DNA from: Pseudomonadota bacterium | Lineage (GTDB): Bacteria; Desulfobacterota; Syntrophia; Syntrophales; UBA8958 | Direction: 5' to 3' | Length of the DNA: 37,286 bases | NCBI GenBank assembly: GCA_030057915.1 | Contig: JASGUC010000006.1 | Coordinates: 1-37,286, forward strand | Shown: piece after piece, positions 13,456 to 15,156 of the stretch | Layout: the number at the start of each line of letters is the position of its first letter | How positions within the stretch are numbered: position 1 is the stretch's first letter | Made by a program: the position numbers and the translations under genes | Notes under the pieces: generated by a model | Seen by the model: only the letters and a program-made list of their open reading frames with translations | Told to the model about the DNA's origin: nothing | The model's database searches: none

Positions 13456-14004
13456 TCAAAAAACGAATACGGCGGCCGCTATGACGGTGGTAAAGCCGCC
13501 GTTCTTGACGATGGATGACTGGGTGATATTGCGGGTCCGCACGATCTTGCCGCTGATCTTGAAGATCTCCTTCTTTTCGTCCCAGCTTTCGTCCACGTTG
13601 AAATCGATGCCGAGCGTGGAGGCCAGCATGGCGGCCGCCAGGTCTTCCGCGTATTCGCCGGCCTGTTTTTCCGTTTGTCCGAAGGCGTGGTGCTCGCTGA
13701 TATAGCCGTAGGAGGTCTTGTCCGCCGGGATGGCGCAACCGATGGAAGCGGCCAGGAGGCGCTTGGGTTCGTTGCTGCACGCCCGGCTCATTACACAGTA
13801 GGTGATGGCCCCCGGCACCAGGGCCTTGAGGCCCTGGGTCCGGGAGATCATCTTCGATCCTGGGGGAAAGATGCTGGAAACCTGGACGAGGTTACATTTT
13901 TCAATGCCGGCATCACGGAGGGCCCGTTCGAAGGAATGAAGCTCGTCTTTATGGTTGCCGACCCCTTTTGTAAAAAAAACCTTGGTAGGTACAAGGGATT
14001 TCAT
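13456..14004 (-). CDS. pdaD: Pyruvoyl-dependent arginine decarboxylase
   Basis: 182 residues, converting arginine to agmatine and CO2, the first step of a polyamine or acid-response route. The self-processing site is present as [12 protein letters not shown], so cleavage between Ser43 and Ser44 would create the pyruvoyl group on the beta chain. [10 protein letters not shown] with Glu104 matches the conserved acidic active-site residue of PvlArgDC. I chose ATG at 14004 because AAGGAGGGG lies just upstream; a GTG two codons earlier overlaps that spacing. No agmatinase or speB-like gene is adjacent in this window. A TTGACA-type promoter lies upstream. Confidence 0.93.
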
Positions 14005-14042
14005 TGCCACCCCTCCTTGTGTCGCGGATTGAATTGGAACCG

Positions 14043-14090: not shown

Positions 14091-14234
14091 TCAACCCCCT
14101 TCCGTCTGTGCAAACACTGTATTATCGTATAGATGTTCCATCTTCTCCTTGTGTTTGAACTCCTCGTTGGCCCTCCGCGCCAGGAGGTCCCTGGCCTTCC
14201 CCGGGGGGTGGATTTCGGCAAGTCGTCTGTAGAA
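14091..14234 (-). pseudogene. Ferritin-like domain fragment
   Basis: 47 residues beginning FYRRLAEIHPP and ending DNTVFAQTEGG. The pattern FYRxLAE ... ARDLLARRANEEFKHKEKMEHLY, with an EE-x2-KH helix, resembles the middle of a rubrerythrin/ferritin-like helix pair. The preceding first helix is replaced by the tandem repeat at 14236-14350, through which the frame stays open but reads as low complexity. The C-terminal half of the expected domain is absent as well. I infer a decayed or truncated gene downstream of the selenoprotein gene; an unusual short protein is the alternative. Confidence 0.45.
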
Positions 14235-14235
14235 G

Positions 14236-14350
14236 AGATGGGACTTCTGTCCCCGTTCCGCCGTGAGATAGGGACTTCCATCCTTGTTCCGCCGCCGTGA
14301 GATAGGGACTTCCATCCCCGTTCCGCCGCCGCGAGATAGGGATTCCCGCC
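14236..14350. repeat. 34-bp tandem repeat
   Basis: About 3.5 imperfect units starting GAGATAGGGACTTCCATCC and ending GTTCCGCCGCCG, at about 14236, 14265, 14299 and 14333. They lie between the ferritin-like remnant and the selenoprotein gene. Confidence 0.85.
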
Positions 14351-14413
14351 CTGGGCCGTGGTTTCGATTTCCGGTTTTTCCTGGTTGGTTGGTTGTCCTT
14401 GCCTCGGCACGAC

Positions 14414-14432
14414 GACCCATCACCGATGGGTC
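14414..14432 (-). promoter_or_regulatory. Candidate SECIS element for the second UGA
   Basis: On the minus strand GACCCATC (14432-14425), loop GGT (14424-14422) and GATGGGTC (14421-14414) form a perfect 8-bp hairpin with a GGU apical loop. The loop is 18 nt after the in-frame TGA at 14445-14443. That distance and a G/U-rich loop fit bacterial selenocysteine insertion elements. It lies just after the true stop, so it could also act as a 3' hairpin. Confidence 0.65.
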
Positions 14433-14433
14433 T

Positions 14434-14649
14434 TCAGACCCCTCAGGTGCCGCCGTGGCCGACCGTCACCCTGTCACCCTCCACGATGACGGGGACCCGC
14501 CGTTTCCCGCCGGAAAGCTTGAGCATCTCCAGAAGCCCGTCGGCGTCCTTTTTTACATCCACGTAAACCGCCCGACCACCATAGGCCGACCTGGCCTGGT
14601 CAGTGTAGGGTCATCCGCTTTTCCCGTAGATGACGATCTTCTCTTCCAT
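14434..14649 (-). CDS. Uxx-star family glutaredoxin-like selenoprotein, two in-frame UGA codons
   Basis: 71 residues if two TGA codons are read as selenocysteine. The first is codon 13 (14613-14611) in the context IVIYGKSG-U-PYT, the position of the glutaredoxin CPYC/T redox site. The second is codon 69 (14445-14443), giving the ending GGT-U-G-V-stop. Between them lies an uninterrupted thioredoxin-fold sequence: DQARSAYGG, VYVDVKKD, LLEMLKLSGGKRRVPVIVE with the cis-Pro, and GDRVTVGHGG. The C-terminal U-x-x-stop and this body match what I know as the Uxx-star (seleno)protein family. SECIS-like hairpins follow both TGA codons at the same 18-nt distance. The gene starts 21 bp after the cNMP-binding gene, probably in one transcript. 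Ordinary ORF calling breaks it into pieces. Confidence 0.88.
14583..14597 (-). promoter_or_regulatory. Candidate SECIS element for the first UGA
   Basis: Minus strand AGGCC (14597-14593), loop AGGTC (14592-14588), GGCCT (14587-14583). The loop begins 18 nt after the TGA at 14613-14611. The loop AGGUC is like that of the E. coli fdhF SECIS (AGGUCU), and an outer GACC/GGTC pairing is possible with a bulge. Confidence 0.7.
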
Positions 14650-14670
14650 GTCTTTTCCCTTCCCGCGGCA

Positions 14671-15156
14671 TCAGTACTCGGTGAGCTGGGAGAGGCCCCG
14701 CTCGCCGACCAGGATGATCCGCGTGTGGCTAAGTCGGGAGGCGATGATCTTGGCGATGGCCTTCATGGCCTTGAAACCCAGATCGCAGTCCTCATCCATG
14801 AGGTCGCGGAGTTTTCCGGCCTCCAGGGCGATCAGCCTGGTGTTGTCGATGCACAGGGCCCCCAGGGTGTAGATGAAGGGCTCGACGACGGCGGACCACC
14901 CCATGACCTCCCCCTTGGCCACGGTGTCCACCGTCACCTGCATCGGCGGGCGGTGTGGCCCCAGGTAGGACTCCAGGGACATGACCACTTTCCCCTCCTG
15001 AATGAGGAAGAGACTCCGGGCCGGATCTCCCTTTTTGTACATCTGTTTTCCCGCCGGATGAGACTCCTCCGTGGCGATGCCAGCGAGTCTCTCCAGTTGT
15101 TCATGGGAGAAATCTTTAAAGAAATTGAATTCCTTCAGCATGTTTGCCGTCACCAT
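14671..15156 (-). CDS. Cyclic-nucleotide-binding domain protein (Crp-type sensor domain only)
   Basis: 161 residues. The N-terminal helix MLKEFNFFKDFSHEQLERLAGIA and the beta-roll segments GKQMYKKGDPARSLFLIQEGKVVMSL and KGEVMGWSAVVEP form a cNMP-binding fold like Crp/Fnr, with GEVMGWSAV at the phosphate-binding cassette position. The usual Arg of the cAMP cassette is not obvious, so the ligand is uncertain. No DNA-binding helix-turn-helix follows, so it is not a transcription factor by itself. The start is ATG at 15156 with AAGGAGGAG; the frame open to 15888 is not used. It probably shares a transcript with the downstream selenoprotein gene. Confidence 0.87.
   Translation of the reverse strand: MVTANMLKEFNFFKDFSHEQLERLAGIATEESHPAGKQMYKKGDPARSLFLIQEGKVVMSLESYLGPHRPPMQVTVDTVAKGEVMGWSAVVEPFIYTLGALCIDNTRLIALEAGKLRDLMDEDCDLGFKAMKAIAKIIASRLSHTRIILVGERGLSQLTEY

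Follow-up and report, generated by a model that had tools for sequence, protein, structure and literature searches.

Can a short frame that carries two in-frame TGA codons and ends in a third TGA be a complete gene, and how would each of the three codons be read? The question is raised by the reverse strand of the window (the whole stretch of DNA that was analysed, 37,286 nt), where a sequence-only reading had placed a hidden protein with two selenocysteine (Sec) residues and a hairpin behind each UGA. The answer that we consider very probable is that the gene encodes a minimal glutaredoxin-fold protein of UXX-star family 1, with UGA13 and UGA69 decoded as Sec and UGA72 as the stop.

Reading Frame and Family Membership

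The proposed frame of 71 codons, in which codons 13 and 69 are TGA, was found as described at 14649–14434 of the reverse strand. With TGA translated as Sec, the coding sequence (14437–14649, reverse strand) yields 71 amino acids, MEEKIVIYGKSGUPYTDQARSAYGGRAVYVDVKKDADGLLEMLKLSGGKRRVPVIVEGDRVTVGHGGTUGV, followed by TGA. A purine-rich GGAAGGG precedes the ATG. On the NCBIfam model NF041114 ("UXX-star selenoprotein family 1"), whose curated cut-off is 72 bits, the protein scored 106.5 bits (E-value 6.1e-31), with residues 5–71 covering model positions 1–70 of 70. It also matched the Pfam glutaredoxin model PF00462 (28 bits against a cut-off of 22.9, E-value 2.5e-6). These two matches bear out the suspected assignment to the Uxx-star glutaredoxin-like proteins. 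When the window was compared with L020, L023, L024, L025 and L067, dN/dS was 0.10–0.31 over the whole gene and 0.09–0.45 for the stretch after codon 13; judging from these alignments, purifying selection acts on the whole gene, across the TGA. Together, the NF041114 match and the low dN/dS after codon 13 indicate that the 71-codon frame did not arise by chance.

If "hidden" is taken to mean unknown, the word does not apply to this protein. A curated NCBIfam model exists, and a 2026 review (PMC13188914), which cites the UXX-star paper by Haft and Tolstoy, lists UXX-star family 1 with two Sec and the motif UxxT; a two-Sec protein of this kind was therefore already known. An earlier review (PMC9312934) lists a Grx-like protein with the motif UxxT. 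NF041114 was matched above the cut-off in 75 of 297 genomes of the same phylum, mostly with two TGA codons inside the match, and the gene studied here is the only such match in its own genome, likewise with two TGA inside. Our literature search on two-Sec glutaredoxins returned general papers only, the main text of the 2008 paper cited for the UXX-star family does not contain the family name, and a tblastn search against plasmids found no homologue. The gene is a further member of an already catalogued two-Sec family and a good new example of it, without being novel in kind. It adds one more genome with a two-Sec UXX-star protein and confirms that a raw sequence allows a pair of in-frame UGAs to be recognised.

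Conservation of Codons 13 and 69

Homologues were collected from named genomes and by a search of the phylum. In total, 92 were aligned, 82 of them to the end; the counts below refer to related sequences, not to independent events. Codon 13 (14611–14613, reverse strand) occupies the nucleophile position of glutaredoxins (U-P-Y-T). It was TGA in 75 of the 92 homologues and a Cys codon in 17, and nothing else was seen. The close relatives L020–L022, whose proteins are 83% identical to the window protein, carry a Cys codon in place of TGA13, which amounts to a direct exchange of Cys and Sec.

Codon 69 (14443–14445, reverse strand), in the C-terminal U-G-V-stop tail, was TGA in all 82 homologues aligned to the end. 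Both positions were TGA in 67 of these, and the combination of Cys at 13 with TGA at 69 accounted for the other 15. As none of the 82 has Cys at codon 69, the usual Cys/Sec pairing test is limited to position 13. Another kind of evidence comes from what follows codon 69, namely x-[V/I/L] in every one of the 82 homologues, with a stop codon immediately next in 81. The terminator itself varied (TGA in 38, TAA in 27 and TAG in 17 homologues). Conservation of the tail in front of three different stop codons shows that ribosomes pass codon 69 and that the tail is translated. Homologues with neither Cys nor Sec at both TGA positions had been named as a pattern that would speak against the two-Sec claim; position 13 was Cys or Sec in all homologues and position 69 was Sec in 82 of 82. 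Residues 13, 14, 19, 42, 53, 64 and 69 formed the invariant columns of the alignment. In a subgroup of seven homologues (L028, L029, L098, L100 and L106–L108), the insert preceding the C-terminal G-G-T-TGA was longer and the tail differed (e.g., TGA-P-V...); they possibly represent another UXX-star subfamily.

Selenocysteine Machinery

The genome encodes SelB (360 bits, E-value 9.6e-108, above the cut-off), SelA (591 bits, 1.1e-177) and SelD (390 bits, 8.1e-117), and it has one strong match to tRNA-Sec (selC; 77 bits, anticodon TCA). All four genes that the sequence-only reading had singled out are thus present, and absence of selB or selC is refuted. The SelD gene of this genome (L009), a selenoprotein gene too, has an in-frame TGA of its own near the N terminus, in the context GAG-U-ACKIGP, the usual Sec site of SelD. 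This TGA is independent evidence that the host organism uses Sec.

SECIS-like Hairpins

The putative bacterial SECIS of codon 13 lies at 14572–14603 (reverse strand) and has the loop AGGTC (14592–14588) on a 5-bp inner stem, AGGCC/GGCCT. That of codon 69 lies at 14406–14440 (reverse strand), mostly 3' of the stop codon, and has the loop GGT (14424–14422) on an 8-bp stem, GACCCATC/GATGGGTC (14432–14414). Their folding energies were -11.6 and -17.9 kcal/mol, respectively. The hairpins had been said to start exactly 18 nt after each TGA; this holds for the apical loops, whereas the stems begin 7–14 nt after the TGA. Both hairpins agree with the published bSECIS criteria. Taken alone, the codon-13 hairpin was not unusual in its folding stability (z -0.08, 60 nt), and the codon-69 hairpin was moderately so (z -1.6 to -1.9). 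An Rfam scan of 14350–14700 returned chance matches only. In a G+C-rich genome, one hairpin sequence by itself is weak evidence, and the strong evidence is geometry that recurs across the family.

We measured this geometry as the percentage of homologues that fit the SECIS model and as the percentage that fit a strict form of it (loop 17–20 nt after the TGA, stem of at least 5 bp). Dinucleotide shuffles served as the control, a fair one since the stems were picked for pairing. At site 69, 87% of the homologues fitted the model versus 26% of the shuffles, and 72% versus 3% fitted the strict form. The loops there were mainly GTT, GGT, GTG, GGC or CGTGC, carried by 36 different 5-bp stems that are complementary or nearly so. 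At site 13, the Sec homologues fitted the model in 57% of cases (shuffles 15%) and the strict form in 39% (shuffles 3%); the corresponding values for the Cys homologues were 47% and 18% (3/17). The loop was found at 18 nt in 49% of the Sec homologues at this site, versus 6% of the shuffles and 12% of the Cys homologues. A control position 120 nt downstream gave 12% versus 13% of shuffles for the model and 5% versus 2% for the strict form.

Site 69 is the cleaner of the two tests because site 13 is intragenic and protein conservation also shapes the RNA there. By these comparisons, UGA69 is the site with the strongest SECIS geometry in the family. The bSECIS criteria and the family-wide rates, which are far above those of shuffles and at site 69 also exceed the control 120 nt downstream, uphold the claim of SECIS elements at both UGAs. 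Decoding of both UGAs is supported by the family match, the Sec machinery, the conservation of codons 13 and 69 and the SECIS geometry, and we infer that Sec is actually inserted at UGA13 and UGA69.

The Third UGA

The real terminator is TGA codon 72 (14434–14436, reverse strand), three codons after a Sec TGA, a circumstance that the sequence-only reading did not mention. Its distance from the apical loop of the codon-69 hairpin is 9 nt. Where UGA is the terminator in the family, it fitted the SECIS model in 16% of cases versus 29% of shuffles, and the strict form in 3% versus 2%. In the window, a weak hairpin (-7.9) after UGA72 formally fits the model, but it can form only if the -17.9 hairpin gives up its 8-bp stem.

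In the proposed mechanism, SelB with Sec-tRNA-Sec would decode UGA13 and UGA69, each with the help of its own hairpin, whose loop lies 18 nt downstream. UGA72 would be read as a stop, since it is followed by no strong hairpin at the right distance. The loop lies 18 nt from UGA69 and 9 nt from UGA72, and under the model 9 nt is too short a spacing; this would account for Sec at the former and a stop at the latter. How far each UGA is from the strong hairpin would be a sufficient explanation for the two outcomes. We give about even chances to a bolder proposal, in which a Sec-UGA and a stop-UGA three codons apart in one frame (38 of 82 homologues, the window gene included), told apart by their distance from one strong hairpin, make the gene a natural ruler for the shortest loop distance at which SelB still works. 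In a further, possible reading, a diselenide bond joins Sec13 and Sec69 within the molecule. The arrangement UGA(Sec)-x-x-UGA(stop), served by a single hairpin, offers a compact natural test of the SECIS distance rule.

Gene Neighbourhood

The upstream neighbour encodes a protein with a cyclic-nucleotide-binding domain (14671–15156, reverse strand; PF00027, E-value 1.3e-8). Its frame ends 21 nt before the selenoprotein ATG, and the two genes are probably on the same transcript. The downstream neighbour (14091–14423, reverse strand) is a damaged rubrerythrin gene of which only the C-terminal part is left. The replaced part contains a 34-nt tandem repeat in 3.4 copies (14235–14346), within an open frame of 110 codons. 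In eight relatives (L020–L025, L027 and L047), the cNMP-binding gene is directly upstream and rubrerythrin directly downstream of the UXX-star gene; an intact rubrerythrin was found at the same place in L024 (PF02915, E-value 1.1e-11) and seven other relatives. This conserved order suggests that the function should be sought in oxidative stress. A gene for pyruvoyl-dependent arginine decarboxylase (13456–14010, reverse strand; PF01862, E-value 7e-61) adjoins the cluster and is also found downstream in L024.

The stop TGA of the cNMP-binding gene (14671–14673, reverse strand) shares the reading frame of the selenoprotein ORF, and the same was observed in L020–L022, L024 and L025. A read-through fusion of the two proteins was considered and rejected: this TGA has no SECIS-like hairpin, a site resembling a ribosome-binding site and the ATG come after it, and the two ORFs are out of frame in L023 and L027.

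Predicted Structure and Function

The AlphaFold model, built with 81 homologues (pLDDT 85, pTM 0.70), has elements in the order E-H-E-H-E-E (beta-alpha-beta-alpha-beta-beta), and as modelled the protein has a thioredoxin-like fold. Helix 14–26 begins directly after residue 13, and the invariant P53 corresponds to the conserved Pro before strand 3. Glutaredoxins were the best PDB matches both by fold (Foldseek) and by sequence. Among the best on both counts were the cGrx1 entries 7c10 and 7c12, from Clostridium oremlandii. The active site reads U-P-Y-T, with UxxT in place of the glutaredoxin CxxC/CxxS and Thr16 in the position of the second Cys. The sequence alignment to glutaredoxins stops at the glycine region; glutaredoxins continue beyond it, whereas the window protein ends in G-G-T-U-G-V. 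These last residues are the lowest-confidence part of the model (block mean pLDDT 71).

Sec13 would be the nucleophile, without a CxxC partner (Thr16). As Thr occupies the place of the other active-site Cys, the likely resolving residue would be Sec69, located on the flexible tail. In glutaredoxins, the glycine region sits beside the glutathione site, and Sec69 may for this reason be able to reach Sec13. A selenenylsulfide/diselenide pair of Sec13 and Sec69 is plausible as the putative chemistry. The protein would be a thiol/selenol oxidoreductase that works through selenols, or a metal(loid)-binding redox protein, and with cNMP-binding and rubrerythrin genes as its neighbours it would belong to an oxidative-stress module or work close to one.

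Alternative Explanations

Two alternatives concern decoding. In one, only UGA13 encodes Sec and UGA69 is an ordinary stop, so that the protein ends in G-G-T. This would fit the lack of Cys at position 69 in 82 homologues and the position of the strong hairpin, mostly 3' of the coding region. Conservation of x-[VIL] in 82/82 homologues and of a stop at codon 72 in 81/82, with three stop codons in use, is nevertheless sensible only if the tail is translated, and the SECIS geometry is strongest precisely after UGA69; we regard this alternative as very improbable. Even less credible, to the point of being negligible, is a glutaredoxin gene in decay that has acquired two nonsense mutations and yields no functional selenoprotein. 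The damage to the adjoining rubrerythrin gene in the window speaks for this, but both TGAs recur at identical positions in 67/82 homologues from many families of the phylum, dN/dS is well below 1 across the gene, and the Sec machinery is complete in the genome.

The remaining alternative accepts the two-Sec UXX-star protein and differs in function, which would be binding of metals or metalloids through Se ligands, not redox exchange. Sec residues of UXX-star proteins may indeed be metal-binding ligands or act on unknown substrates, as suggested in PMC13188914, and UxxT lacks the partner of a CxxC pair. Against this stand the glutaredoxin fold with the position of Sec13, and the nearest conserved neighbours, which are a cNMP-binding protein and rubrerythrin and not genes of metal transport. 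We consider metal binding in place of redox exchange unlikely, though far less so than either alternative on decoding.

Comparison with Known Systems

The preferred reading, a family 1 protein with Sec at 13 and 69 and a stop at UGA72, places the window protein beside several known systems. It shares the two Sec, UxxT and the U-x-x-stop tail with UXX-star selenoprotein family 1 (NF041114, also "distant Grx-like protein 1"), which is widespread in the same phylum, and it differs from that family in nothing essential. UXX-star families 2 and 3 and the HUGP/GUXX-star fusion (NF041211, NF047338 and NF045501) are related models with the same tail; the window protein scored 49.6 to 56.3 bits against them, under every curated cut-off (97–325 bits). 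With the selenoprotein glutaredoxins of the UxxC type, such as that of Clostridium oremlandii, it has in common the glutaredoxin fold and an N-terminal active-site redox residue. Those proteins, however, have a UxxC/CxxC pair and a chain that extends past the glycine region; in the window protein, the motif is UxxT and the chain ends in a short tail that holds another Sec.
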